Shown piece by piece: positions 30,221 to 53,994 of a stretch of 57,338 nt of DNA. Within the stretch, counting starts at the first letter, position 1, and every line of letters begins with the position of its first letter. The notes under the pieces are model-generated. The model did not search any database and had not been told where the DNA came from. It saw nothing but the letters and a program-made list of their open reading frames with translations. Source of the stretch: Ectocarpus siliculosus (taxonomy: Eukaryota > Sar > Phaeophyceae > Ectocarpales > Ectocarpaceae); assembly GCA_000310025.1 (NCBI GenBank), contig FN649739.1, forward strand, positions 2,550,868 through 2,608,205, written 5' to 3'. Both the position numbers and the translations under genes were made by a program.

Positions 30221-30519
30221 TATGTAATGGAGCAACTAGTGTATTTGCATTGTACGGGCGTTTCATGAACGTTGTATGAGCGCTTATTAGATATTTTGAA
30301 TTTTCTTTGGATATGGATATTTGGCGACGTTGAGGGGTATTGAAGTAGCTTGAAGGAAGATCAAAATCCCAGCCCCGCTCTCTCACTCTCCGAGTGGGCG
30401 CTGAGCGGACCTGGTCTAAGAAGGCTAAACAAGAGATCAAACAACAACTGTGAGTACCCGAAGCCAGGAGCAACGAGCTTGCTCCCTTCCCTCTTTTATT
30501 TCTCTGTTCCCCCATAACA
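30221..30519 (+). mobile_element. solo LTR (copy 1 of the LTR family)
   Basis: Starts TATGTAATGGAGCAACTAG and ends CCCCCATAACA, with near-palindromic termini. It is flanked on both sides by TCTAC (30,216-30,220 and 30,520-30,524), the expected 5-bp target duplication. The body matches 50,716-51,011 closely. No internal domain is attached, so it is a recombined solo LTR. Confidence 0.85.
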
Positions 30520-30637
30520 TCTACATACTACATACATGCATACACACATACGCTACAGATTGATCTACCAAACAAAGTAGTACCAAGTGTCAATCAATTT
30601 CCATCTATCTACAGCTAGCTACATTTTTTTTTTTTGT

Positions 30638-34112: not shown

Positions 34113-34377
34113 TATTATTATTGGGTATTTTGAATTTCTTTGGATATGGACATTTGGCGTCGTTGAGGGGTATTGAAGTAGCTTGAAGGAAGATCAAAAA
34201 AATCTCAGCCCCGCTCCCTCACTCTCCGAGTGGTGGGCGCTGAGCGGACCTGCCTGGTCTAAGAAGGCTAAAACAAGAGATCAAACAACAACTAATATTA
34301 ACTGTACTGTGAGTACCCAAGCCAGGAGCAACGAACTTGCTCCCTTCCCTCCTTTATTTCTCTGTTCCTCCATGACA
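34113..34377 (+). mobile_element. 5'-truncated LTR (copy 2 of the LTR family)
   Basis: From TATTTTGAATTTCTTTGG onward it matches the LTRs at 30,221 and 50,716, ending CTCCATGACA. The first 60 or so bases are missing or replaced. Small insertions (GTGG, GCCT, TAATATTAACTG) separate it from the other copies. Just after its end, TGGCGTCGTCTGGC could be a tRNA primer site; if so, this is the 5' LTR of the 41.9-50.3 kb element. Confidence 0.65.
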
Positions 34378-34837
34378 GACATTGTGGCGTCGTCTGGCAT
34401 TTGGACACCGGTCCTTCGTTTCGGTGTTTCGGTGCTCATCGTTCGCGTGAACGTCTCGCATTTTAGCCCTCTCGATTTTTTTTAGTTACCTGGTTTTAGA
34501 GAGGGCACGGTTTTGCTCTCTCTGACTCACTCGGTGAGGCACTTTTTTGTTTTGACGTGGGCGTTTGCTCCGCGGTCGTGTGTGCGCGACGGGCGTTTGC
34601 TCCGGTTGTGTGCGCGACGGGCGTACAGGCCCCATGCGCGAGGGCTTCCCCTCGCATGGCTTTGTGTTCACCAAGGGACGGCTTGGTGGACGCTGGCCCT
34701 TCTTTCCCCATTTGCTCGGCAAACATTCTCGCGTAGGATTGATTGCTCTCCATCAATCTAGAAATTCTTCGACCTTGTGCATGACGTGCACATGTTACAA
34801 AAGACATGCCCCTTTTTGCTCCCAAGACTGTTCGTGT

Positions 34838-37654: not shown

Positions 37655-38410
37655 TCAGAATCCCCATGACTGCAATCCTCCAGTTCTCCCGGAGCGATTA
37701 CTTTTCCCGCGATCAACAGGCTCGTGTGTTGTGCCGCCCGCTACTCCACCGCCGACGCCGACGCCCCTCCGCTGCCTTGTCATTGGGCCGGTCCCAACAG
37801 GTCGCTCATGTTTGTGGCCCCGAAGGATTATCCTCCAGGCTCCACCTCCTGACACCTCGTCCCGTGTACCCGAGGCAGTCAACCTACCCCCAGCAGCGCC
37901 TCTGCTAGGGCTGCCAACCGTACAGAGAAAGTCGATGGTCTGGAACCCACCAAACCCACCATTTGCAGGGACGTCAAACGCCCGCACCGGTTCACTTTCC
38001 GTGCCCGATCTACTGCTGCTCTCTCTTCCAGCGGCGTCATCTGTTCTAACGCCAGCCGCAGCGTGCAGCTCTGATTGGCAGCTGCCTGGCGGCGAGATTC
38101 CGACAATCCCACCGCAGGATGCGGCGCGTCTTCCAGCACCGCCTGGCCCCCCTCGGCTTCCGCAATCTGGCATTGCCTGCAGCAGCGATGACATCTTGTC
38201 CATCACCCCCTGCATCCAAACTCCCTGCGAATTGCTTCCCAGCGGGGGGCCAGCGGATGGGTGGCCCGGGGGACCTACTCCCCAGACTCCACCGGGTGGC
38301 ACCCCAAACCGTGTGCCCGGCGCGGCTCCTCCGCGCCCTGCGGTGTTGCCAGCGCCGCTTGACTCCCCCTCTTCTGCCCCCGCCGCCCTGGCAGACGGCA
38401 TCTGAAGTTG
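37655..38410 (-). CDS. minus-strand ORF block, segment D (Gly/Ala/Pro-rich)
   Basis: An open frame with natural-looking composition continues segment C in another frame, for example LEQLQMPSARAAGAEEGESS and GVMDKMSSLLQAMPD. It ends at 37,655. No known domain. The overlapping plus-strand frame (37,416-38,405) is Pro/Leu-rich and looks like its shadow. A host or transposon origin cannot be decided. Confidence 0.35.
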   Translation of the reverse strand, partial: QLQMPSARAAGAEEGESSGAGNTAGRGGAAPGTRFGVPPGGVWGVGPPGHPSAGPPLGSNSQGVWMQGVMDKMSSLLQAMPDCGSRGGPGGAGRRAASCGGIVGISPPGSCQSELHAAAGVRTDDAAGRESSSRSGTESEPVRAFDVPANGGFGGFQTIDFLCTVGSPSRGAAGGRLTASGTRDEVSGGGAWRIILRGHKHERPVGTGPMTRQRRGVGVGGGVAGGTTHEPVDRGKSNRSGRTGGLQSWGF

Positions 38411-38412
38411 CT

Positions 38413-39620
38413 CTAGCTTCCCATGAGGACACGCTTGTGGAAGGGAGCATACCATCCAGCCACCCATGAGGGCGACTTGATGGTCTGCTTGCCGGAGGGA
38501 TCAGCGGCCGACAGGATTTCAGCCAACACGCTTTCGGTCGAACGAGCGAAGGCAGAAAATTCTGCCGGGGGAAGCGGCACTACCGCATACAACTCGTTCA
38601 CTTTAAGCTTGCCGTATCCTTTGCGCACGCTGAGGGCGTACGCCTCTGCGGCGGCAACGGCGTTTGCATCAAGCTGTACCTGCGCGGTGCGTGCACCGGC
38701 AGACGACAGGGGGAGTGCCCGGTCATCAGCGGAATCGCTTGCGGCCGCGTGCACGGCCGGCAGCCGTGGCCTCGCAACCGACACCGCGATAGCCGAGACC
38801 GGTGGTCCCTGTGGCAAAACACGTTGGGAGGGCGTCGGTACCACCCCAGAAACCTGTGTCGTCTCCGTTTTCACAACGGAGGCGGGGGGCAGTACCTCTG
38901 TTTTCACAGCGGCAAATGATGCATGCGATGGCATAGCGGAGGCTACTGACGGTGGCTCTGACTTTACTAACGGCACTGGCTGTTGTGGCATCACCGGCGG
39001 CTGCGGCACCGGCGGCACCGGCGGCACCGACGACTGCGGCACCGGCGGCTGCGGTACCTGCGGCATCGGCACCGGCGGCAACGGCACCGGCGGCTGCGGC
39101 ACCGGCTGCGGCGGCATCTGTAACGGCGGTACCAGCGGCGACGGCACCGACAGCGGCGACACCGGCGACGGCAGTCTCGACGACGGCACGTCAAAAGCCG
39201 CTACCGACGGCGACGCCGTCGCCGACGGTTGCCGCTGCTGGGGAAAACTCGACAAAGACATGCGATGCAATAGCTGTCGTGCACGTTCTAACTCAGGCTC
39301 GGGGTGGTCAACGATGGGTTGGGTCGCTTTGACCGACGTCTCAGCGATGTGGGGCGGCAAAGTACTGACCGGGGACATGGCGGCCGCAGACATTTGGGCA
39401 GAAGCGACAGTAATCGGGTCCTGCGGCATCGTCACCGGCCACTGTTGACCCCCAAGACCCATGAACGGCGGCTGCAACGGGTACGGATTTCCAAGCGCAT
39501 CTACGGCACACGGCTGCTGAAAAAACGGCACATTTTGTCCTGCGATACCATACTGTACTTGCCTGCTATTAGTCGGACCATAGTAGGAGAGAGGAGTGTG
39601 TCCGCCACGGTCAGAAGCCT
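38413..39620 (-). CDS. minus-strand ORF block, segment C (Pro/Val repeat protein)
   Basis: About 400 codons open from just after a poly-G tract near 39,630, where the reading frame of segment B slips into this one. Features in order: Gln/Pro-rich start (VPFFQQPCAVDALGNP), a helical stretch (ELERARQLLHRMSL), a PVPQPPVPLPPVP-type repeat of about 55 residues encoded by a GGCACCGGCGGC-like minisatellite (plus-strand sequence near 39,000-39,180), two VKTE-type motifs, and a C-terminus with VRKGYGKLKVNELYAVVPLP. No enzymatic motif. It could be a structural (gag-like) protein of a second retroelement. Confidence 0.45.
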
Positions 39621-40186
39621 CCCCCCCCCGGCATTCCGGCGGCTATCTCCCCCATCATTCCGGTGGCCACCTCCGCCAGCACCCCGATGAGCATCCGTGC
39701 GTCCGCGGGAGTCATGTCCTCTCGAACGGCCTGCATCCTCCTGAGGTATTTCTGTGTATGCGGGCGGTCGTGAATACGAGAGGAATGGTAGGACCCAGCA
39801 GACGCAGAAGTGCCCCACCCGGAAGGTTCCGAGGGTTGCCCCCCGATCTGAGAGCGGTGACCCCCGGAACCCCCCGAACCAGACCTCGAACGTGCAGAAG
39901 TGTCCACATCCGCCCTCGAACGCGCGGAGATGTCCACATCCGCCGCCCGCACACGACGCAGATCAGCCACCAGCCGCTCAAGCCGCCGGCGTTTCGTGGA
40001 CGACCAAAGGGGGCTGTAAAGCAGACTTGCAACCGTTTCATGACGCTGAGAAACGAGATCGACCGAGATCCTGTACACTAGCGCAAGGCCAGCATCCTTA
40101 GCTTCTGACGTCGAAAAAAAGCTGGTGTTGACGAACTCGATTAATCCGTCAATGTTGAGACCTAGAAGTCTAGTGCGAGAGAACAA
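39611..40186 (-). CDS. minus-strand ORF block, segment B (helical and Ser/Arg-rich)
   Basis: Open frame of about 190 codons with GLIEFVNTSFFSTSEAKDAG, STKRRRLERLVADLRRV, two copies of an ADVD.SARSR unit and a final MTPADARMLIGVLAEVA helix. It follows segment A after a stop at 40,189 and runs into the poly-G slip before segment C. The layout resembles a gag-type protein, but no capsid or zinc-knuckle motif is evident. Confidence 0.45.
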   Translation of the reverse strand: MFSRTRLLGLNIDGLIEFVNTSFFSTSEAKDAGLALVYRISVDLVSQRHETVASLLYSPLWSSTKRRRLERLVADLRRVRAADVDISARSRADVDTSARSRSGSGGSGGHRSQIGGQPSEPSGWGTSASAGSYHSSRIHDRPHTQKYLRRMQAVREDMTPADARMLIGVLAEVATGMMGEIAAGMPGGGGF

Positions 40187-40188
40187 GA

Positions 40189-41414
40189 CTAGAAATCACC
40201 TGCATAAGAAGACGATGAAGACGAAGAAGACGAGCTGGACGAAGAGGTGCCCAAAGAGGACGAGCTGGACGAGTTTTTGCGAGATTTGCGCCGTTTCCTG
40301 ACGTGTCCCACTGGTCCACCGGCCGAGATGGTAGTAATCACGAAGGAATTCCGACTACGAGTCTCCGTGCCTCCCTCTTCAACAGGCATGGTGTTGGTCG
40401 CAACCGCGGCAGCATCACTGTCAAAACCAGTCGTATCGGCCGTAGCCACAGCAGCAGAGGCTACTGCAGCAGCAGCAGCAGCAGCAGCAGCATTGACAGG
40501 CGCAGCATCTACACCAGTCGCAACAGGCGCGGCAACAAATACAGCATTCGCAACAGCAGACGCGTCAGCTACACCTGTCGCAACAGAAGCGGCAACAGGT
40601 GCAGCAGCAACAACAGGCGCGGACGCTACAGCAGAGGTCACAGCGGCAGAAGCCGCAGCAAGATCAGCAGTAGCGGTAGCTGCAGCAGGAACTGCAACGG
40701 TAACGTCAGACGCGTGATCAACCGCAGAAAGTTCTGGGAAATTTCCTGCGGCTTGCAAACGTGCCAACTGCTTTACGAGATCACGGGCCGTCCCAGAAGC
40801 AGATGCCATCGATGCCATGTGCTCACGCTGTGGCTCCGCGTCTTCTGCCAACAGAGCGCTGTAACGCTGAGCCTCCAGCCGTTCCTCTTCTTCACGTGCC
40901 TTACGCAGACGCTCCGCTCTTTCACGCGCAGTCGCCTCTGCCAAGGCGATTGCCTGTTCAAGACGAGCATGGTGCTCGCGTGCTTTCCGCTGATCAGTCT
41001 CTCGGCGAGACGCGCGTGCCTCGAGCTCAGCGGTTGAGAGCCGAGGGATAGCCACAGCAGCAGTCTCCTGAGAGACAGCAGCAAGCTGACGGGGGATGCC
41101 GCCGGAGCCAGTACCCTCACAGGCGCCAGGCGACACCGCAGTACTCGTCCCCGGTGTTCCGAGTTGACCCCCCCAGCGGAAGGAGACAAAGTACGTATGT
41201 ATGTATGTGTGCCACCACCACCATCATCTGTCTCCCTCGACACCGGGAGCGTGCCTGCAGCAGGAGAGCTCCCCTGCTCTCCTGCCGTCACCGAGCTGAC
41301 AGGCGTGCCAGCCTGAAGGTCTTCCTGCAGTTTCGCCAACGCAGCGGGATCTGCGGTGGTGTCGAGATCAACCGACATGCATGCACCCTGTGTTGCCATG
41401 GGTGACACATACAT
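40189..41414 (-). CDS. minus-strand ORF block, segment A (coiled coil, poly-Ala, poly-Ser)
   Basis: Starts at an ATG at 41,414 (MYVSPMATQGACMSVDLD). The frame changes at a GTAT/CCA microsatellite near 41,190-41,226, then stays open to 40,189. It contains a charged coiled coil (TERE-like: ARLEQAIALAEATARERAER), an Ala/Val-rich stretch encoded by GCA/GCT repeats, a basic VRKRRKSRKNSS motif and a poly-Ser tail. The opposite-strand poly-Ala frame is its shadow. Transcribed away from the gag gene, so the two may share a divergent start region near 41.4-42.0 kb. Confidence 0.45.
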
Positions 41415-41922
41415 GTTGTGTTGTCCCCTGGGGGAAAAACAGACGACAGAACAACAGCAGCGGCATCATCCGCAGTAGGAAAAGAGGACGGCAAGACAGC
41501 ATCATCAGCGGGCGAGTCACTGATCGGGTGACTGGTCGAGACCCAATCGTGGAGAGAGTGCCGACTCTTGCCATCCAAACTCTTCGAAGCGGCGAGAGCA
41601 AAAGGCATGAGCTAATCTTGAAAACACCAAATAAATGCACGATGCAGCAGCAGAAACAAAATCTAGAAAGAAAAATTCGTGAGGCGAATGCAAAGAAAGA
41701 GCGAATTTTTCGCCCGACAAAGTGGCCGTGCGCGGCCTTCTCTTCGATCGACCGGCCTTGACAAAAACCGCGGTTCAGCAGACGTAACACACGGTCCGAA
41801 ATTGGTGCCGGCAGAATGTCCTCCGGCCACAGATCGGTGGAGATAAGCCCCCGATCGAAATGCTCAATAACGGCACCTTTTTCGCGGATTTCTGAGATCC
41901 ATGTGAACGATTGTGCAAATAA

Positions 41923-43291
41923 ATGAGCGCAACCCACTACTACTACAACCAGACGGCAGCAAGTCATGGCAGCAAAGCGGCCATTCAGCAGCCTGTCGCC
42001 GACATGCGGAGGGGTTGCCAAGCGCGTGAGAAGCGTAAGGCTTTCCCCCGAAAGCAGGCAGAAAGGTGTCGTCTTTATTCGTCAACCCTACCTGAGTGGT
42101 ATGCCCTTCCTTCTTGTCTTTGTAGAGACTCTAGTGCCATTTCAAATCCTCAAGGCGCCAATGCCGCAACCCGCGAATTGGTGGATTCTTCGTTTTCTCA
42201 GGTGAAACGTTTCTTAGAGACGAAGGACAAGTCGGGGCCCTCGGCATACCGTCGGCTGCTCAAACTGCCCGCGGATGAGTGGGAACCGAAAGGTTTCAAC
42301 CGGGGCATCGACAAGCTGCAGGATTTTGGTGTGCCCAACGGCACGCCGTACAGCAAATTCGTTACGAAGTTTAAGGCGTTGGCAATGTCGGAGTTGGCCT
42401 CGCATAGGGCTTTCGCGCTGGATCTGCGCATGGTACAGCGTGCTCTTCGGGACGCTTTGTTGGAGCAGTACCCGAATGTTCTCTCGTCTTTGCCGTTGAA
42501 AGATAAGATTCTCCACAACGTGGTTTAGTGATCAGGATGAGCTTTGGGATGCTTTGTCGTCGGAGGAGGCACTAAAACACTCGCCCGCCTGCAACGGCGA
42601 CCGTTATTTTACCACTGTCACGTCTGGGTTTTCATCGGCGCCCACACGAGCCATGACTGCGACCGTGGGGCAGCAGCGGCCGCCACCGCCGCCGCCGGTG
42701 CAGCCGTCCGCGTGGTCGCCGGGAACACAATTTGCCGCCGGGGTGATGGCCATCGACCCTATGCCGTCCGATAACACATGTCCATTCGAGCAGGACTACG
42801 ACTGCTGGCCGTTGCGTGGTCACTACGGCTTTGTGTACAGCGTTGTGGCAAGTATGGCTAAGATGGACCCCCCTTTGTTTACACCGCTGTTGACCCCTGC
42901 CGACCGAGCACAAGTTCTGCGGCAGTATTCTGGCCAATGTCTCAACTCCGGGCAGGCGGACCACAGTCTCAAAACAAACCCGTATGCTTTCAACAATTAC
43001 ACCGACCTCTTAAACCCGGCCATTGCTTCGCATGCTGATAGCGTTCAGGTTTTTCAACGTTGGCAAAGCCGCATGAAGTCTCACCGCCCGCGTGTGCACA
43101 ATAAAAATGGCCCGGGAAAGAGCAGCGGTCATACACAGGGCGACGGCCGCCGCTCTGGGAAACGTAACTCAACTACAGAAACACCTCCTCCGGCGCCGGC
43201 CGTAGGCGCCGCCGCGACCCCGGCGCCCGCCGCCGTACCTGGAACTCCGCACGCTCGGAGTTCCGGAACCCCGCACGCGCGAGGTAACTGA
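41923..43291 (+). pseudogene. gag-like region, frameshifted
   Basis: Frame 1 (41,923-42,528) ends in a stop and frame 2 picks up at about 42,530, staying open to 43,291. Recognisable protein: TRELVDSSFSQVKRFLETKD, DKLQDFGVPNGTPYSKFV, then CPFEQDYDCWPLRGHYGFVY and NSGQADHSLKTNPYAFNNY, and a basic Gly/Ser/Pro tail that could bind RNA. No CCHC zinc knuckle. Assigned as gag from its place before protease and RT. Confidence 0.6.
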
Positions 43292-43337
43292 CACGCCGCC
43301 GACGACCTTTTGCACACATCGCCGTCAACAGCACCGG

Positions 43338-44150
43338 GTGTGCGCTGTACGACTAAATAGTTCTCAAGACGTTCGTATCACACAGACGTCTTCGGGTTCG
43401 CCTATGTTAGTTTCCCATCCTTTTATTTGTCAGATGTCGCCCCACGCCTCATCACAGCCTGTTTTGGATGACCGACGTGACTCGTCGGCGCCGAATACAG
43501 TCTTGTGGTGTGGGCGAGGGGCCGACCAGACTTCGGGTGTCTCACGGACGCTCGCCCCGATGTCTACGCCCCCCGGAGGCATGGCTTCGGCTTCTCCCAC
43601 CGTTTCGGCGGCTCCGGGTGGCCTCGTCAACCACGCTGGAGCACAGGGACCTTCGGGACAGCCGCAGGCCCGCCGCGGTGGCTCGAGTACGCTTGTACCC
43701 ACCGCGCCCCCTCCGGACCCCTCGCGACGTTCCTCTACGGAGCACCAACGTCGCACGGTGCTGACTGCACCGCCGTTGCCGAGCGCAAGTAACGGTTTCC
43801 CCAAATCGGAAGGTTCATGTTCTTTGTCACGAAAGAGCGGTCCCGAGCCTCCCGCGGCCGCTGACCATGTTGGTCGAGCGCCCGCGATGAAGGCCGCTTT
43901 TAATGAACGGACCTACGCCGACGTTTTGCGCGAAAACGCCCGCGTAGACCGTTTGGTTTCGCACGCTTCTGCGGCTGAATCCCTGCTTTTGCCTGCCTCT
44001 CCTCGTAACCCACAATCCAGCCCGCCTTCGGGTGGCACCCAGATTGTTCTGCCGGTTGCCGGTGCCATTTCTCTTGACGATATTTCCTCGGGGAAGGTAA
44101 GCGCACCCGCGCGGCAGGCCCCTGTTTTTGACGGTTGTCAGGAATACTAA
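43338..44150 (+). pseudogene. Pro/Ser-rich linker between gag and NADAR, ends at TAA
   Basis: Open frame of about 270 codons, low complexity in its first two thirds, then NERTYADVLRENARVDRLVS and VLPVAGAISLDDISSGKV. It ends at TAA (44,148-44,150) and the NADAR domain follows in the same frame. The stop is one C-to-T change from a Gln codon. Confidence 0.5.
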
Positions 44151-44642
44151 AACGATGAGGTTTTCCTCTTTTGGAAACCGCCGTCCTTTCTGTCTAACTG
44201 GACGCCCTGTGAGTTCTCGGTTCATGCCATCCGCTACGTGTGCGGCGAACAGTTCATGATGGCGGAGAAAGCCCGCATTTTCGGCGATGATGCCGCTTAT
44301 GCCAAAATCATGGCTACCTCCGACCCGAGACAACACAAGTCCCTTGGTCGCAAGGTACGCTGTTTTGACCATGCTCTATGGGAGCTCCGACGCGAGGATG
44401 TTGCCTTTTCGCTTTTGTATGCAAAATTCGCCCAAAATGCTGACGCGCGTGAACGTTTGTTGGCTACGGGTGATAGACAGATAGCGGAGGCCAGTCCTTA
44501 TGACGGATTGTGGGGCATTGGTGGTGATGCCTTCGATCCGCGTGCGGCGTCGCCCTCCAAGTGGACTGGTAAAAACCTCTTGGGCAAAGCGCTTGTTGCG
44601 ACGCGCACGCTTCTGCGTGTGCGCCCGGTCGAACCCAATTAG
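44151..44642 (+). CDS. NADAR (YbiA/DUF1768) domain inside the retroelement polyprotein
   Basis: The frame is open for 163 codons and holds a full-length NADAR domain of about 150 residues. Motifs in order: LFWKPPSFLSNWTPCEF, YVCGEQFMMAEKARIFGDD (conserved Glu in the GEQ segment), HKSLGRKV, CFDHALW, LLYAKFAQNAD, RLLATGDRQIAEASPYDGLW followed by GIGGD, and KWTGKNLLGKALVATR. These are the family signature motifs in the right order. Bacterial YbiA is a riboflavin-pathway N-glycosidase; NADAR proteins paired with DarT toxins remove ADP-ribose from guanine in DNA. In the element it sits between gag and protease. It has no ATG near its start, so it would be made by readthrough or as part of the polyprotein. 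Activity here is not shown. Confidence 0.85.
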   Translation, partial: NDEVFLFWKPPSFLSNWTPCEFSVHAIRYVCGEQFMMAEKARIFGDDAAYAKIMATSDPRQHKSLGRKVRCFDHALWELRREDVAFSLLYAKFAQNADARERLLATGDRQIAEASPYDGLWGIGGDAFDPRAASPSKWTGKNLLGKALVATRTLLRVRPVEPN

Positions 44643-45741
44643 CCTTTACGCCCTGAACACTCGGGGTAACCTGCCCCCGGGTGAGGACTCTTCGGCCAAT
44701 GATTCCTCGCCCGAGGACGCACGTGGCCCGCTGGACGTGCCAGCCAACACGCCCGCGGACCACTCGAAACTGGTGCTGCACATTGCCTCTGCTGCTTTTC
44801 GCGAAGCCGCCGCTTCCCCACCGCGGCTGTTGGCGGAACACGGCCCAGATTTGGTAAGCGGTGATGTTTTCGTAGATTGCGATACCTCTACGACGCGAGT
44901 CCGTGTGCATAGTGGTACCGGAGCCGTGTGTACAGCGCCTGGTGTCGCCCTTTTGGACTCGGGCTCACCTTCATCTTTCGTTAGTGATGATTTTCTTGAA
45001 GCCATGGAGGCGTCAGGAGCTGCATCTGTCCACAGTCGTCGTTCGGTGCCCGTTCGGCAGTGGCGTGGTTTTGGCTCTGGCAATGCTCTTGAAACCACCT
45101 CATCCGTGCGGCTGTCCGTTCAACGTTTTTATGGTGATAGTGCCACCGCTTCGTTAGCGGTGTGGGTGTATGTTGTCCCAGCTGCCGCCATGGGTCACGT
45201 CCTCAACCTTGGACGTGATAGTTGGATGCGTTTTAACTCTCGTTTGTCCACTACTTTGCCCACGCGGTCGGCGAGTGGACGCATTATGGAGAAACTTTCT
45301 CTGTCATCGGATTTTGCGGCGGGAGCTTCCGCGTATGTCGCTGGACCCTCCGCCCCCGGGGCATCTTACTTCCAGCGGTACGCCGGCAGGAAGGGTGTCT
45401 CCCTTTCCGATAAACCCACTTTGACAAGGGTGAACCTCGTTCGCAGCTCTGACACTCCCGCTCTCACCGGCAACTATCTTGTCACGTTTTTACCGAAACA
45501 CGGCGCCCTCTCGGCGTCGGACGCGTTTGTTTCGGACGGGCCTCAACACATCCCATTGACAGGGTGCGCCGAGTTGGAGCCAGGTGAGGTGCTTGGAGTG
45601 GCGACTGCCCCACTTGTGCAGATTCCGCTTGCGTCGATTGATCTTACACCGCAGACGGCCGAGGGCGTCGGGTTGAGTGACCCTCCGCCGCCAGCCCGTT
45701 CCGAGGATGGGCCGCCGTCTCGCGTGAATTCTTTGCATTAG
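44500..45741 (+). pseudogene. retropepsin-like aspartic protease region
   Basis: The frame is +1 relative to NADAR, overlapping its last 140 bases, and is open to TAG at 45,739. The active-site motif is VALLDSGSPSSFVS (Asp codon at 44,956), and a second family motif is MGHVLNLGRDSWMRF. A Pro-rich tail follows. The protease would cleave the polyprotein. The RT region continues in the same frame after the TAG, which is one C-to-T change from a Gln codon. Confidence 0.75.
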
Positions 45742-47300
45742 AACATCCCGGTTGCGGATCCGGAGATCTCGGACTCTCCCGCGGCCTCACTGCCGCCGAA
45801 ACCGCCGCCACCGGACCTGTTGGAATGCCTCTCAGAAGTGCAGCGAATGATTTTTCGCGAGTTGTGGCAACGTTTGCCTGCACATTTGCACGAAGTGACT
45901 TTTGATTTGCATGACTCGGGTTGGACCCCGGAAGCCATCGACAGCCTGGCGGATGTGCTGTGTGACTTTTCGGATGTGTTTTCGCGGTCACCGTCCGATT
46001 TCGGTTGCTGTTCCGTGAAACCGTTTCGTTTGGAAGTGCCCCCTGGCATGAAACCGTTGGCCTCGCGTCCCTATAGGCTCAACCCTCTGGTGGAGAAAAA
46101 TGTCGATGGAATTCTCGATCGATACCTTGCTGCCGGTCTTATTCAGCACTCGCATTCGCCGTGGGCGAGCCCTCTGGTGGTCATGCCTAAAAAGGACGGC
46201 AATCTGCGTTTGACCGTGAACTACAAAAAGCTTAACAAATTGTGCAGCCTTGGCCAACAACCGCAGCCGCGAGTTGACCACATCATCGATTCCCTGCACA
46301 AGGGCAAGGTGTTTTCCATTTTCGATCTTAACTCCGCTTTCCACCAGATCACCGTCGAAGAGGACACGGTTCAGCTTACGGCGTTTTGTACGCCCACGCA
46401 ACTTTTCGAGTGGCTCCGTATGCCTCAGGGAAGCTCCGTGGCACCGTCGTGGTCCACCATGGCATCAACGAAGTGGTTGAAGGTCTGGACCATGTGCATA
46501 CCTAGACGATGTGATTGTGTTTGACGCCGACCCCATCCACCATGTCGCCAACATACGGTTATTTTTGGAGCGTTTGCGCAAGTACAACCTCAAGCTTTCT
46601 CCTTTCAAGAGTCGCGTCGGCGCTAAGGAGGTTGTATATTTAGGCCACACCATCTCCCCTGCGGGTGTTAGTCCTCGTGCCGATAAGGTCGAGGCCCTCA
46701 CAAAAATGTCGCTGCCTTACAACGTCAAGCAGCTGTGTTCCTTGCTGGGTGGGCTTTCGTATTGCCGCAAAATCATCAAGGGTTTGTCCATGCGCGCGTG
46801 AAACCACTCACAGACCTTTTGCGTAAGGACGCGAAGTTTTGTTTTACGCCGGCTATGGCGGAAACTCTTGGCGAAGCTGTCCGAACCTACGGTTTTGGCT
46901 TTCCCGGATTGGGATGCTGTCGCGGATGGCAGCCGCCCTCTCCGGCTTTGCTGTGACGCCTGTGCGGATGGTTTTGGTGCGGCCCTTGAACAGGAACAGG
47001 CCGATGGTTCCGTTCGCCCCATTCTGTTCGTTAGCCGCGCTACGCTCGAATCCGAGCGCAATTGGACGACTTGGAGGCTGGAAGTATCGTGCGGGCATTC
47101 AAACGCCTACGCGGTTATTTTTGGTCTACGCACTTTCTGATTTATTTGGATCACAAGACTTTGGAGAACATCGTCAAGGTGGGTGAACACAACGCCCGCG
47201 TCCAACGTTGGCTCGAGTTCCTTCCCTCGTTCAATTACACCCTTGTCTACCGCAAAGACACTGCCAACGCCAATGCGGATTTTCTTTCGCGGTTGCCCTT
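45742..47300 (+). pseudogene. reverse transcriptase and RNase H, multiple frameshifts
   Basis: RT motifs: GLIQHSHSPWASPLVVMPKK, LRLTVNYKKLNK, FSIFDLNSAFHQI (catalytic Asp, 46,324), WLRMPQGSSVAPSW, then in another frame YLDDVIVFD (46,499-46,516) and VVYLGHTISPAGV. RNase H: LRLCCDACADGFGAALEQEQ, FVSRATLESERNW, then IYLDHKTLENI and VQRWLEFLPSFNYTLVYRK followed by NADFLSRL. The frame changes near 46,460-46,500, 46,790, 46,880 and 47,070. Strong Ty3/gypsy match. Confidence 0.9.
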
Positions 47301-49460
47301 GCCGGCGACCGACGCGGATAGACACGGTGACACCAGTTTCGCAGTCGATGACGCCGCGGGCGTTTCTCTCATCTGTGCGTACGGACGGAGTTATCACTCT
47401 AGTTCGACGCCGAACATCGGCTTGGGTGGGCTTGACATTGACGATCAACGAGACGCGTTGGTACACGCGCCTTTGACGGAGGATGACTTTGGGGACTTCC
47501 GCCGTTTTGGGCCACAAATGGTCGTGGCGGCTCCGTCGCCCTCCTCCGTAGTTGACTCGTCGAATTTTTCGCCTCCTGGTGTTTTCGCTGTCGTTTGCGA
47601 TGTAGCCCCCGAGAGTTCTGTGCCCGATGGACCTCCTCCGGCTTCCGTTTCTGCTGAACCAGACGTCGCTCCCTCGTCCACCATCGGAACCTCCTCAGCT
47701 GCCCTGTCGCTTTCGCGTGGCCCTCTGATTTCTTCTCGTACTCGGGCGAGAACGAATTCGGCCTCGGGCATGGCTCACAGCCGTCCCAATTATTTTCCGA
47801 AACAACCACGGGCCGTTGTGGTGCCCAGAACGCCGCGGCCTCCTCGAACGCCGGCCCGGTCGAGCGGTGCCGCGCGGTCTACGAGAGCCGTGGGTAGCCC
47901 TACTTCTGGCCCGCTGCCTTCTTCGGCGCCGGCTGAGTTGCCGCCGCCGCCGCCGCCCGCGCCTGCTGCCGCCACCCCGGCGCCACCGCCGCCCGCGGCG
48001 CCCACGCCGCCAGTGTTGTCGCCCGCGGGTTCTAGCCCTGCGGCTCCCGTGGTGCCGCCCACGGCCGCTGAGGACGCTCACCTCCGCGACTGTGTGCACA
48101 CATTCTCGCATGCCGATTGGGCCCGAGAACAGCTGTCGGAAAGTGAGTGTGTGGCGGCAATAATACATTTTTCGTCTTTGAGATCCCAGGCGGTTTTGCC
48201 GGATACATTCTGGGATTGCTTGCCCTGTGCGCGACGGCCGGCGTTGTCTGATGTTGTCGCCCTCGCATCTAAAACGTGCCTGCACTACAGACGATGGTAC
48301 GCGATTGTTGGTGCGAAATTCTGCCCCACTGCCTCTCGGTAGTTCGGGCGGGCGTATCACTCGCCTCCCGCCTTCGAAGACTCCACGCATACACGTGCCA
48401 ATGCTATTGCGACCTTGGGTCCTACAAGCATGTCACGCCACAGCGTCTTTTCACCTGGGCACCGCTCGGACTTTACGTATGTTGGAGCGATTTTTCTGGT
48501 GGATTGGGATGGACTTGTCCGTTCGTTGGTGGCTTCGGCATTGTTTAATTTGCCAAGCGCGCAAGACTTCCCGGCAAACGTATCGTTGGCCTACGCCCAC
48601 TCTGCCCCTCCCGAATGGGCCGGGTATTGTAGTGAGCGTCGATTGTTTTGGGCCATTGCCGGTCACGTCCCGTGGGAATGCATATATACTTTTGTTTACG
48701 GACCGTTTCAGTCGACGGGCGGATATGTATGCCACTACCAAGGCGGAATTTACCGCTAGGGGAACGGCTAACATTTTTGTCAACCGATGCATGGCGTTGT
48801 GGGGTTGTCCGGTGACTCTTCTTTCGGACAACGGTATGCAATTTTGTTCCAAGTTGTCCATGGCTATTTACGAGCTGATGAAGATCAAGAAAGTCACTAC
48901 CAGCTCATACCACCCCCAAACTAACGGTGGGGCCGAGCGTGATAAACCACACCATGGCTCAAATGCTTGCTGTTGTGGTCAACGAGCGTCAGGACGATTG
49001 GGACGTCCATCTTCCCCATGTCGAGTTTGCATACAACAACTCGGTAAACACCGCCACAGGTTTGGCGCCAAATGAAGCGCATATTGGACGGTTGCCCCGT
49101 CTCCCGCTTTCTGTTTTGGACCACCCTAGCGTGGGTGGCCATCAAAGTTTGGATTGGGACCAGCTCGCCTTCTGCAATCTTGCGGTGGAACGCCAGAGAC
49201 GAGCTTTCGCGTTGGTGCGGGAACAACATGCGGTTACGGTGTCGCGTGTCGAACGTCGGAACTCTGCGCTGTTGGACGGTCTGCGTCAGATCCCGAAGTA
49301 CGAAGTTGGTGGTCGGGCTTGGGTCTACAACTCCGCCGCTACTATTCGGCAGGGTGTGCGGAAACACACCGACGATTTGGTGCTCAAAGCGAAGCTTTCG
49401 CTCAACTACACCGGACCGCATAAGACCCTTCCTTCCTGTTGGCCCGGCCAAAGCGGATGA
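47300..49460 (+). pseudogene. low-complexity linker and integrase (HHCC and DDE core), frameshifted
   Basis: 47,300-48,110 is a Pro/Ala/Ser-rich linker in the RNase H frame. The integrase zinc-binding part is ACHATASFHLGTARTLRMLE then RHCLICQARK. The catalytic triad is Asp in VVSVDCFGPLP (48,640), Asp in LLSDNGMQF (48,827) and Glu in TNGGAERDK (48,935), a correct D-x35-E spacing. Frame changes lie at about 48,300 and 48,940. The downstream part (HVEFAYNNSVNTATGLAPNE) is the usual integrase C-terminal region. Confidence 0.9.
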
Positions 49461-49938
49461 TTCACCAGATGGGAAACCTGTAGAGCGCAAACTTCTCTAC
49501 TTGGACCTGCCATCAGACATGCTGGGACCAGAATCTCGCAACCGTGTCTCAGTCTTGCGGTGCAAACCGTGTACCAACCCATACGACACGGATGACCTGC
49601 CTAAGTATATGCCGGCCAATCTGTCGAAATATGTTTTGCACTCGTATAGTAACAAGTCTCCCCCGTACAATTTGACTGCTGATGATATTTTAGCGGAGTC
49701 TAGTCGTCTGGATGTTGAGAATATTTCAGGACACCAAATTGTACGTGGACGCGGTGGTGTGGTAGCTGTCTTGTACCTGACTCATTGGATGGGTTTGTTG
49801 ACACCGTCGTGGGAAAGGGAGTCTGATTTGCAGGAATACAGAAAACACATTCTGCTTTACTGGTCTGGTAACGCTAGTCAGCGCGTACAAGGAAACCGAG
49901 CTTATCGTAATGCTCGGATAGCTTCGGCCGACCGATAA
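49432..49938 (+). pseudogene. chromodomain at integrase C-terminus
   Basis: After a frame change near 49,435 the frame is open to TAA at 49,936. Residues from 49,711 on fit a chromodomain: DVENISGHQIV, AVLYLTHWMG, PSWERESDLQEYRKHI. The tryptophan before MG and the WE..SDL motif are kept, but the usual tyrosine after the glycine is Leu, so the methyl-lysine cage is incomplete, as in chromovirus group II domains. Role: targeting integration to chromatin. Confidence 0.7.
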
Positions 49939-50328
49939 CTTGCTCGGAATCAGGCCGAACGTTTCATTGCTCCCGGGTACGAGTTGGTTTCGCGTGACAC
50001 TTGGTGGGCTCGCTTCTCTGTTTCTGTTTTGCCTGTCGGGGCCCACATTTGGTACAAAGCTTTGGATGGACTTTGGTGGCTTGGGCAGATTAGTAGTTTC
50101 GTAACAGACCAGTACATTGTTCGATTTTTGGACACCCCCGGCCCTCGAAAGCTTTCTCTCCCGGAGTATAGTTACTCCACGGTTTTGGATGCTCCTTGCG
50201 GTTCTTGGTGCTTGCAAAAACACCGTACTCGTGGTTTGACCAACCCTTCCACGGATGATGGCGTTACGTCGCGAACACCAGGCGTTGTGGCACAGCTGGC
50301 TGTTGCCCCATCTGGAAGTGTGCTTTGA
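49939..50328 (+). pseudogene. C-terminal Tudor/SH3-like domain of the retroelement
   Basis: Same frame as the chromodomain, separated only by TAA (one C-to-T step from Gln). Core: GAHIWYKALDGLWWLGQI, QYIVRFLDTPGP, YSTVLDAPCGSWCLQKH. The WW.GQI.....YIVRF pattern resembles Tudor/PWWP-type chromatin readers. I recall similar endings in other stramenopile retroelements but cannot verify it here. Confidence 0.5.
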
Positions 50329-50715
50329 TATCATGCCGCCTACGGGCCGCTACATGTTTTTTTGTGTTTTGTTCTACATCGTACGAAGTGGTACGCTAGC
50401 GCGTGTTTGGGTGGTGTGAGCTTCTTCTATTGTTGCAATAGTCACCCCGACCTTTGCGTGCCCAACGCGACCGAACCCGGTTTTGATTCAGACGGGTTCC
50501 GTCGTTGGCGATGTGATTCTCAGTAGTCATCACTGTGTGGTGTGGGAATGGTTTGGAGTATTTGTCGGGGATGAACTATTTTCTCCGACCCTAGTTGCTT
50601 TTATTTTATCTTATTTTTGTCTGATTTGGAAAGTCGCATCTTCGATCTTTATTTGAGGTTGAGTATTGGATTGAAGATAAAGTTTCTGCATCTACGACTT
50701 CCCAGGGTGGGCTAA

Positions 50716-51011
50716 TGTAATGGAGCAACTAGTGTATTTGCATTGTACGAGCGTTTCATGAACGTTGTATGAGCGCTTATTGGATATTTTGAATTTCTTT
50801 GGATATGGATATTTGGCGTCGTTGAGGGGTATTTAAGTAGCTTGAAGGAAGATCAAATCCCCAGCCCCGCTCCCTCACTCTCCGAGTGGGCGCTGAGCGG
50901 ACCTGGTCTAGGAGGCTAAAACAAGAGATCAAACAACAACTGTGAGTACCCGAAGCCAGGAGCAACGAACTTGCTCCCTTCCCTCTTTTATTTCTCTGTT
51001 CCTCCATAACA
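50716..51011 (+). mobile_element. 3' LTR of the Ty3/gypsy element (copy 3)
   Basis: TGTAATGGAGCAACTAG to CTCCATAACA, 296 bp, preceded by a purine-rich tract (AGGGTGGGCTAA) that could prime plus-strand synthesis. It contains a TATTTAAG TATA-like box. It is closely related to the solo LTR at 30,221. No flanking duplication is recognisable. Confidence 0.8.
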
Positions 51012-51173
51012 TTGTCCCGTATCGGTTCTCGAAGAGGTGTTGTAGATGTCCTAATTTGTTCTTGAGTTGGTGCGTGCTCTCTCCGCAGCGTATCGCGCGA
51101 GCAGAACAAACTCTATAAAGCACGAAAAATTTCACCGAAGCGTGCTTTCTTGCAAATAGATGTAGGCGTTTTC

Positions 51174-51237
51174 CCCCCGATCCGTGAAAGTAGCAAGCAG
51201 TTTTTTTTGGGGGCTTGCTGCTTTCACGGATCCGGGG
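51174..51237. repeat. hairpin with 19-bp arms
   Basis: GATCCGTGAAAGTAGCAAG pairs with CTTGCTGCTTTCACGGATC (one mismatch) across a T/G loop, flanked by C and G runs that extend the stem. Confidence 0.85.
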
Positions 51238-53108
51238 AATTTGACACAAGGGTCGGGCAGGGTCGGGCAGGCGCACCGCGGGCGCTGTAACATCACTGAG
51301 AACGCTTGCAAGGCCTGCTAGACTCACGTCCAGGTCTGTTGTGGAGACGGACAAGCGACAGAAGCCGCGTTCAATCCGTTCATGGTCCAAAACGAGACAT
51401 TTCGTGATGCTCTCGTCTTCAACTGCTGCTGTTGGTGCTGGAGAATTGTTTCAATCACACATAGCAAACACGGAAACAGTAGAACGAGTACAGCAGCACC
51501 ACCAAGACCTCCAACGCGCTGATTCCTTCGGTTCGGCTGTCTATATGATACCTCACTCCCGGCGCCGTGCTGCTTCCTGGGTATTGGGGGCTTGGATGCT
51601 GCTCAATAAGGTGACACGTGTGTGAGAGACTCGTGCCACCTCACCAAAATGCCGTTCGTTGGAAAAAATGCGGCGAGATGATCTGTTTTTGGTCGGACAC
51701 ATCAACATCAATCCACGGCACCACGCAACCGTAGAGCAACAGAGCCTCCGACACGCTAATTATTTCATTATTTCGGATTGTCCATCTATCTATATGATGC
51801 TAGCCGTCAGCCCCTCTGCCGCCCTACGATTGTTGAGCTCGTCTACCTTTGGGCAGGTGGTGGTCAAAGAAGGGAGCCGCAACCGTGAAAAATGAGCCGG
51901 CAAACTGAAGAAATCGGAAGCAACACCCAGGTTGCAACACTCTGCCCTGCGCTGTTGTTGCTGAAAACTGAAAACAGCAGGCCGGGTGGACGGGATCTTT
52001 CTAAGTGTGTGTGCTGTCCTTTGTGTCGGGTCCTGCTCATTGCGCTTTTACCGCTGCTCTATGGTGAGCAAAACCAAGTCAACCTGTTGTGTGCCGAGCA
52101 AAGCGTGTATTCAGGGATGACATCACGAATAGAACAAGCGAAAAAATATCGATTCTTCTTTTCACCGTTCAGTGAAAAAATGCGTGAATTTTCCGTTGCG
52201 TTAACAATAGGCCTATAAGTAGACTATTATGTCCTTTTCGTGGGGCGGCCCGTTACATATTTTGTCCGACTTTGTTTGGTACTTCCACAGTTTTTTTCCC
52301 GAAGTTATCACAGGGTGTTTTCAAAAGCCTTACTGTCTGCAAAAAAAGTGACCACCATGTTAGTCCGCCTACCAAGGAGAGCAGGGGAACAGCATGCACT
52401 GATGTTCAAAGAGGTTACTCAACAAGTGGCCCTTCATGAGGGCCTTCAGTACACCGTCAATAAGGGGAGTTGGTGTGACGTCATCGGAGGAAAACGGTGT
52501 GCCCGAGAAACTCCGCTTCCGTAGCGCCAATGATGACTTTCGGGGGCGTCCTTCTCATGCTGTGAGTACGCAATTAATTGTTGAAAAACAGCAAGAATGA
52601 TACCGACGTTAGAGGCAAAAGCGTGTCGTCAAGCACGATCAAGTCGTCCAAACGCGATGCGACACAATTCATGGAGACGATTCAACGACTTCTTATTCGT
52701 TGACAAGCTTGCCAATAAAACCTATCACAGGGGGCAGCAGAGCTTCCGTGCGGCATTGCAGGCCACTCAAACAGCTCAGATTACGTCGCGTACTACGCCA
52801 AAGGGATGGTGCCGCGGTGAACAGTGATGATTTGGCGAAATGAAGATATTTCAAACGTGCGTCGAAAAGAGGAGATGATTCTGTCGCCTGCATCAACAAC
52901 TCCTACTAGACTACACATGTAAAAACATTGACCGTAATTCACGTTGAGAATGCGAACACCATCACTGCACCACTTCTTTGATGTAATGACAACCAAAGGG
53001 TTCCTGTAAGACCAAGTCGAAGGTTGAATCAGACCCACCCATGTAAGAACAGCGTCCAACTTCATCGCGGTTACCCTCCCAGGCGGGACTGTCAGCTTTG
53101 GCGAAAAA

Positions 53109-53206
53109 ACGTGAGGAGGCGGTACATACGTGAGGAGGCGGTACATGACGCTCACGGACAGCCGGGGGGTCTTCCGGCTCAACAGCGTCGTCTTCCGGCT
53201 CAACAG
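53109..53206. repeat. two short tandem duplications
   Basis: ACGTGAGGAGGCGGTACAT is repeated exactly (53,109-53,146). GTCTTCCGGCTCAACAG recurs with a 21-bp period (53,169-53,206). Confidence 0.85.
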
Positions 53207-53211
53207 TACAT

Positions 53212-53994
53212 TTGACTACAAGAACAACGGCGCTCGCGGTGGTGGGCCCGGCCACTTTCCTGGAGGACGTCGCCGCCGAGGCGCGCGACTCTGCGGGCGC
53301 CGGGGCGACTCCGCGGGAGGTCCGGACGAGGGCCAAGACGGAGCGAGCCTCAAGGCCACAATCGACGTCCTCTTCCTGTGGTCCTGTCCCCCCACCGGCT
53401 GCCGACACGGCGGGCTTTTTTCCCTCTTGCCGACGGGGGGGGGGAGGGGGTTCGACGACGGGGTTATAGCCGTTCCGGTCGTCGTCTTGCCACGGCGACT
53501 CAGCCCCCGCCACAACGACGCAGCAGACGTGATCTTCCTCCCGGGTGTCCTGCTACTAGGCGGTGGGCGGCGACAGAGGAGGAGGAGGAGGAGGAGGAGG
53601 AGGAGGAGGAGGAGGAGCACCCTGCCGCGCCCGTGTTGGCGGCGCCGCAGCAGCACCCGGCGTTTCGGGCCGCTCCCCCCGGCGGATCAGGGAAACGCCT
53701 TCGACACTGTTGTTCCAGAAAACGGCGCTGCCGCCGCCGCAGCGGCACAGCTCCAGACCCTCCCTTCATCGCCGTTGCCATCCCAATCCCGCTCCTATGA
53801 GCTCGGCGGCAGCGGCGCACCGCGGGCGACGGAGGGCGGTCTCCTACCCCGAGTGCTCGCGAGGGTGGCCCGCGGATGATGACAGCGGCGCCGCGCTCGC
53901 CCGGTCTTTCTTGGCCGCCTCGCTGGCGGCAAACGGCACCGGTATCGGCGGCGCTGTAAAGAAGCCGAAATCATATCAGACTAGTCAGCGCTGA
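53212..53994 (+). CDS. GC-rich possible coding island, frame unresolved
   Basis: Plus-strand frames with protein-like composition follow one another but not in one frame: AVVGPATFLEDVAAEARDSA, a Glu-rich stretch from a GAG microsatellite (53,575-53,615), FDTVVPENGAAAAAAAQLQ, and DDDSGAALARSFLAASLAAN ending at 53,994. A minus-strand frame (52,962-53,513) is an alternative. No known domain. It may be part of a gene with introns or sequencing indels. Confidence 0.25.

Follow-up and report, generated by a model that had tools for sequence, protein, structure and literature searches.

The 57,338-nt stretch of the Ectocarpus siliculosus genome analyzed here (contig FN649739.1, positions 2,550,868 to 2,608,205 of the forward strand; referred to below as the window) contains a decayed copy of a Ty3/Gypsy retroelement. 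This copy belongs to a lineage in which gag and the protease (PR) are separated by a YbiA-type NADAR domain; in the intact members of the lineage, Gag, NADAR, PR, and the reverse transcriptase (RT) form a single polyprotein. The features of the window copy are listed in Table 1.

Table 1. Features of the NADAR-bearing Ty3/Gypsy copy, in window positions
Feature	Position	Strand	Remarks
Element 5′ sequence	40600..42075		Adjoins gag on gag's strand here; looks inverted
Gag part and the linker preceding NADAR	42136..44150	+	Broken frames 42500-43291 and 43206-44150; family match starts at 42136
NADAR (YbiA-type) domain	44151..44642	+	Open frame of 163 aa plus stop; Pfam, PDB sequence, and fold searches
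Retropepsin-like protease region	44836..45240	+	DSG at 44956-44964, in frame 44485-45741; weak Pfam match
Reverse transcriptase fragment frame	45742..46521	+	RVT_1, 2.1e-16
Frame with the C-terminal part of RNase H	47035..48342	+	RT_RNaseH, 2.9e-10, residues 12-66
Integrase	48182..49075	+	H2C2 zinc domain, 1.6e-15; rve core, 1.1e-8
Integrase C-terminal frame	49048..49938	+	Weak chromodomain match, E 0.016, under the cut-off
3′ LTR	50715..51011	+	Most family matches from its left end finish at or a few bases from 51011

The assignment of the carrier to the Ty3/Gypsy retroelements, proposed in the initial annotation, is borne out by the succession of RT, RNase H, and integrase on the plus strand, followed by the 3′ LTR. 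The gag-PR-RT-RNaseH-IN order with LTRs can be recognized, with PR identified by motif and position only and the LTRs represented in the window copy by the 3′ one only. Pfam matches of the protease region (Peptidase_A2B at 0.044 and RVP_2 at 0.05) were both below the cut-off, and no Pfam protease match at 0.05 was found in the frames of two relatives, L009 and L027, so that the label “protease” rests on the motif and its position. The window copy is defective: the pol frame is broken, and the NADAR domain is flanked by stops, one immediately before it and the second at its end.

The sequence that corresponds to the 5′ part of the element in the window is found upstream of gag, on the opposite strand and 1.5 to 9.6 kb away, in 10 other contigs, and it therefore looks inverted in the window copy. 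At two places on contig C25, it lies on gag's strand; one of these is diverged (68 to 81%) and in the window order. The 5′ LTR of the window copy was not identified among the two candidates considered. The segment at 30222-30520, 95.7% identical to the 3′ LTR, is flanked by TCTAC at either end when its start is placed 2 bases before the match and is probably a solo LTR of another insertion of the same family. The diverged LTR piece with a 5′ leader at 34118-34559 (86 to 87%) looks too old and is an older fragment of the family. A different repeat, present at six other places at 88 to 92%, occupies positions 51115-51700, starting about 100 bases past the LTR. A search for direct repeats in 38000-53500 returned only a GC-rich low-complexity family; the repeat at 38960-39190 is of this GC-rich low-complexity kind, with copies mostly 9 and 15 bases apart.

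The NADAR domain itself is complete, as had been claimed from the sequence. Its frame matches the Pfam NADAR family (PF08719) with an E value of 1.6e-45 and 155.7 bits against a curated cut-off of 35.1, over positions 2 to 163 of the 163-position model, which places it in the NADAR superfamily by a whole-domain profile. All four signature motifs named earlier, including GEQFMMAEKA, KFAQN, and GKNLLG, are found in the window copy. At E values of up to 0.01, a PDB sequence search returned two NADAR/YbiA structures alone, 8bau (1.5e-19) and 2b3w (1.6e-6), and a fold search with the predicted structure (mean pLDDT of 81.7, with values below 50 at residues 118-120 and 123-127) returned only the same two below E 0.001. 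Given TM scores of 0.73 against 8bau and 0.76 against 2b3w, the domain is predicted to adopt the YbiA fold. Matches to the domain in a viral library were mainly phage, giant-virus, and nidovirus proteins already named as NADAR.

Family copies, active site, and selection

The source genome (G000) comprises 492 contigs and 189.5 Mb. When it was searched with the NADAR domain, it gave at least 150 matches (the best 150 of 262 candidates), a few of which are pieces of one copy, and a search with the Pfam NADAR family also gave at least 150 (the best 150 of 230 candidates). Thus, the domain is not confined to the window copy, as it would be in the case of the chance insertion considered in the initial annotation. 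Of the 150 listed NADAR matches, 120 are followed on their own strand by a family RT at a distance of 0.3 to 2.4 kb (median, 1,174 bases); within 4 kb upstream and within 4.5 kb on the other strand, no RT was seen. The 30 listed matches that have no paired RT represent either truncated copies or the fact that the RT matches are the best 150 of 453 candidates from the search with the window RT. Conversely, NADAR lies upstream of 125 of the 150 listed RT matches, which adds nine further NADAR matches from the Pfam search, seven of them paired. Among the 25 RT matches that have no NADAR, four are the only ones with less than 50% identity (43 to 44%) and presumably come from other Gypsy lineages. 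NADAR and RT share one frame and phase in 22 of the 26 copies whose NADAR frame reaches at least 2,000 aa. Across the source genome, the copies keep the domain in the same position.

The initial annotation described the gag linker, NADAR, and the DSG protease as joined in frame. This is true of the relatives but not of the window copy, in which stops intervene and the DSG motif lies in a different frame. In 9 out of 11 relatives, the frame starts in a Pro/Ser-rich linker, passes a lead-in that contains EY, continues into NADAR and a further linker that contains IHE or a similar motif, and reaches the protease motif site, which reads DSG in six, NSG in two, and DSD in one; the other two frames (L024 and L030) end before this site. 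In two copies, L011 and L017, most of gag is missing but NADAR is retained: the late gag linker and NADAR come almost immediately after the LTR. Long proteins with the domain were also returned from a protein search: all four are named as Ectocarpus sp. CCAP 1310/34, and a predicted protein of this strain, P0124, combines NADAR with RVT_1 and RNase H.

Conservation was analyzed in NADAR DNA taken from 70 matches, 61 of which lack stops and reach 150 aa or more; the other nine were dropped. Clustering at 80% identity produced six groups and three single sequences, of which L022 and L066 look like frameshifted group members; the six groups and L059 are treated here as seven subfamilies. Eleven side-chain positions of the active site were mapped from the Phytophthora nicotianae NADAR structure (PMC11543638), whose numbering differs from that of the PDB chain by 2 throughout. 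Nine of them are identical in all seven subfamily representatives, each in 57 to 61 of the 61 stop-free copies: Glu43, Lys50, Lys75, Arg79, Trp89, Arg93, Glu125, Asp130, and Trp133 of the P. nicotianae protein correspond, respectively, to Glu33, Lys40, Lys63, Arg67, Trp77, Arg81, Glu113, Asp118, and Trp121 of the window copy. For comparison, 64 of 150 positions overall are invariant in the seven representatives. Asp118 and Trp121 fall within or next to the segment of the predicted structure that has low confidence, and Lys75 (Lys63 in the window) is described as making no direct ligand contact (PMC11543638). The two mapped positions that are not kept are Tyr84, replaced by Phe72 (Phe in 58 of 61), and Asp86, where the window has His74 and the residue is variable. 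The last-strand residue typical of the YbiA subfamily, Glu rather than Asp or His (Glu125 in P. nicotianae), is present as Glu113 in 61 of 61 copies, and the other distal-ribose residue, Glu33, in 59 of 61. The active-site residues of the element NADAR fit a hydrolase.

Selection was evaluated in 23 copies of the window subfamily, with L020 left out, by separating variants found in two or more copies (shared), which should derive from the source elements, from those found in a single copy (singletons). For shared variants, the ratio of nonsynonymous to synonymous rates (N/S) was 0.14 in NADAR (5 N and 11 S) and 0.15 in the protease region (5 N and 12 S), both from small counts, with 0.23 to 0.24 in the linkers and 0.20 between the protease and RT. 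The dN/dS comparison across copies that had been suggested therefore finds NADAR as constrained as the neighboring protease region. The ratios for singletons were 0.54 in NADAR, 0.54 in the protease region, 0.63 to 0.91 in the linkers, and 0.78 between the protease and RT; the NADAR value below 1 may reflect the bias of simple counts as well as selection. Across stop-free copies of six subfamilies, shared ratios ranged from 0.11 to 0.30 in the four that have shared N variants, and the pooled, rounded counts were 150 N to 118 S for singletons versus 15 N to 36 S for shared variants (Fisher p, 0.00067). Between subfamilies, where silent sites are mostly saturated, pN/pS was 0.20 to 0.46. The NADAR domain is family-wide, held in place, and under purifying selection across copies.

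Relationship to the host NADAR gene

The source genome also encodes a host NADAR gene (L074; contig C24, positions 2124900-2127400), which consists of four coding stretches split by introns; its three clean stretches are 83, 90, and 95% identical to a protein from Ectocarpus sp. 13. Stand-alone NADAR proteins of this type are found in Ectocarpus sp. 13 (P0008), E. fasciculatus (P0017), Pylaiella littoralis (P0013), and Scytosiphon promiscuus (P0028). Like the element domain, the host gene contains NADAR with a similar FDG..EY lead-in and the FSQWTPS motif, but it is stand-alone, intron-split in G000, has a Cys/His-rich N terminus, and is not part of a retroelement frame. Proteins of Ectocarpus, Pylaiella, and Scytosiphon share this Cys/His-rich N terminus, and in P0008 the NADAR part is the only one to which Pfam gives a name.

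A search of a protein collection with a profile of the element domain gave 6,410 matches, the best 120 of which are mostly bacterial or unnamed, with some brown-algal stand-alone proteins. In trees of 65 and 101 rows, the element NADARs and element-like metagenome proteins form one group (support of 85/85 and 92/89, respectively). In the next larger group (98/92 and 94/95), these are joined by the host genes, a second Pylaiella protein, and two further lineages without names, whereas the remaining bacterial and viral rows fall elsewhere. When only element and host rows are taken, the branch has support of 57/70. A bacterial origin would agree with the mostly bacterial listed named matches, which parallel the finding of the 2025 paper (PMC12477816), yet the trees favor the host gene; in AU tests, neither the union of the element group with the bacterial block (p, 0.17) nor that of the host group with the same block (p, 0.16) was rejected. 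As for a viral origin, 11 IMG/VR loci were retrieved, the best at 46% identity, and none of the seven included in the tree was placed with the element/host group. The host gene is thus favored, though not shown, to be the nearest relative of the element NADARs, which appear to go back to a single acquisition by the lineage. Within the element group, seven proteins from metagenomes (P0130, P0139, P0142, P0003, P0009, P0030, and P0002) have diverged in the tree from the subfamilies of G000, and two of these, P0139 and P0142, have Pro/Ser-rich flanks resembling the element linkers; the NADAR-element lineage may reach past the source genome.

Possible functions of the element NADAR

NADAR-bearing Gypsy elements are already known: the domain, which the initial annotation held would be a new kind of cargo as a counter-defence enzyme if general, was described in Ectocarpus Gypsy elements in 2025 (PMC12477816), and no other paper on NADAR in retrotransposons appeared among the titles listed from the open-licence literature. 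The results on the active site, selection, position, and host gene are added here. As described in that paper, the lineage, exemplified by Gypsy-12_Ec32, resembles the present one in being Ty3/Gypsy, in carrying a YbiA-type NADAR in the N-terminal region of Pol and a putative C-terminal chromodomain, and in coming from a genome of the brown-alga type; the paper suggests possible horizontal transfer from bacteria, whereas in the present trees the element domains lie nearer to the host NADAR gene, although not conclusively. It also reports a retroelement-borne NADAR in a Tx1 LINE of Crassostrea gigas, considered here from that paper only, which differs in being divergent and located in ORF1 of a non-LTR element (PMC12477816). 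The stand-alone P. nicotianae NADAR (8bau), which hydrolyzes ADP-ribosyl-guanine, shares the fold and the nine active-site residues listed above with the element domain and is 32% identical to it in the fold alignment. A positional analogue is the dUTPase-Pro arrangement of betaretroviruses, in which an accessory enzyme is likewise located directly N-terminal to the protease; that enzyme is unrelated and acts on dUTP (PMC1224870).

Chances appear about even that the element NADAR is a particle-borne ADP-ribosyl hydrolase that clears ADP-ribose from guanine bases in the RNA or cDNA of the element, or from ADP-ribosylated molecules in its vicinity. Such a protein would be made with Gag-Pol, packed into the particle, and freed there by the protease; by stripping ADP-ribose from these targets, it would keep the template copyable. 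Hydrolysis of guanine-linked ADP-ribose has been reported for the P. nicotianae NADAR (PMC11543638) and for other YbiA-type NADARs (PMC11125620). For the NADARs of eukaryotic RNA viruses, macromolecular ADP-ribosylation is favored as the target in section 3.7.2 of PMC9503650, while section 3.4.3 of the same paper leans to soluble targets for viruses at large.

Several other explanations bear on the same data. NADAR could process by-products or ends of the element RNA as part of its house-keeping, with host defence not involved, as proposed in PMC12477816; RNA repair is named as a possible NADAR role in PMC9503650, and the conservation and selection data fit this role equally. Against it, Pfam recognized no RNA-repair partner domain in the frames of the window or of two relatives, which cover parts of the element, and we regard it as a serious if somewhat unlikely alternative. 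Action on soluble NAD-derived metabolites or signals instead of macromolecules, argued for phage NADARs (PMC9503650), seems improbable here: the polyprotein position beside the protease points to a particle-bound role, and the preference for macromolecular targets of eukaryotic RNA virus NADARs goes the same way. Slightly less probable still is a noncatalytic role, either as a structural Gag-Pol spacer or in binding ADP-ribose only, for example, in steering integration to ADP-ribosylated chromatin. Chromatin-reader domains are described in Ectocarpus Gypsy families of all four lineages (PMC12477816), but a spacer would not need the conserved distal-ribose residues. Finally, chance capture or an annotation artefact in one copy, which would agree with the broken state of the window copy, has next to no probability in view of the number of scored matches, the fixed position, and the constraint, and the genome search refutes the one-copy artefact outright.

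Against the hydrolase reading stand the two active-site positions that are not kept and the lack of a DarT match: no such match, and hence no guanine writer, was detected in a six-frame, intron-blind search of the genome, which did contain PARP-like exon pieces in the form of four partial matches. Judged by the lack of a DarT match in this search and by Glu, rather than Asp, as the subfamily residue, the locus does not look like a DarT-NADAR toxin-antitoxin system of the BC4488 type. A counter-defence role in reversing host ADP-ribosylation is no more than possible. The more specific scenario, in which a Gypsy lineage captured a host hydrolase and its particles erase ADP-ribose placed by defence on retroelement RNA or cDNA, is unlikely; if true, brown algae would have to restrict retroelements by means of ADP-ribosylation in a way that has not been described. 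The presence of the host gene and the element copies in one genome makes the host-capture origin testable. If NADAR is active in particles, retroelements would be added to the carriers of ADP-ribose erasers, alongside phages, giant viruses, and nidoviruses, and the abundance of copies under selection would allow a direct approach to the question of whether retrotransposition is restricted by host ADP-ribosylation.
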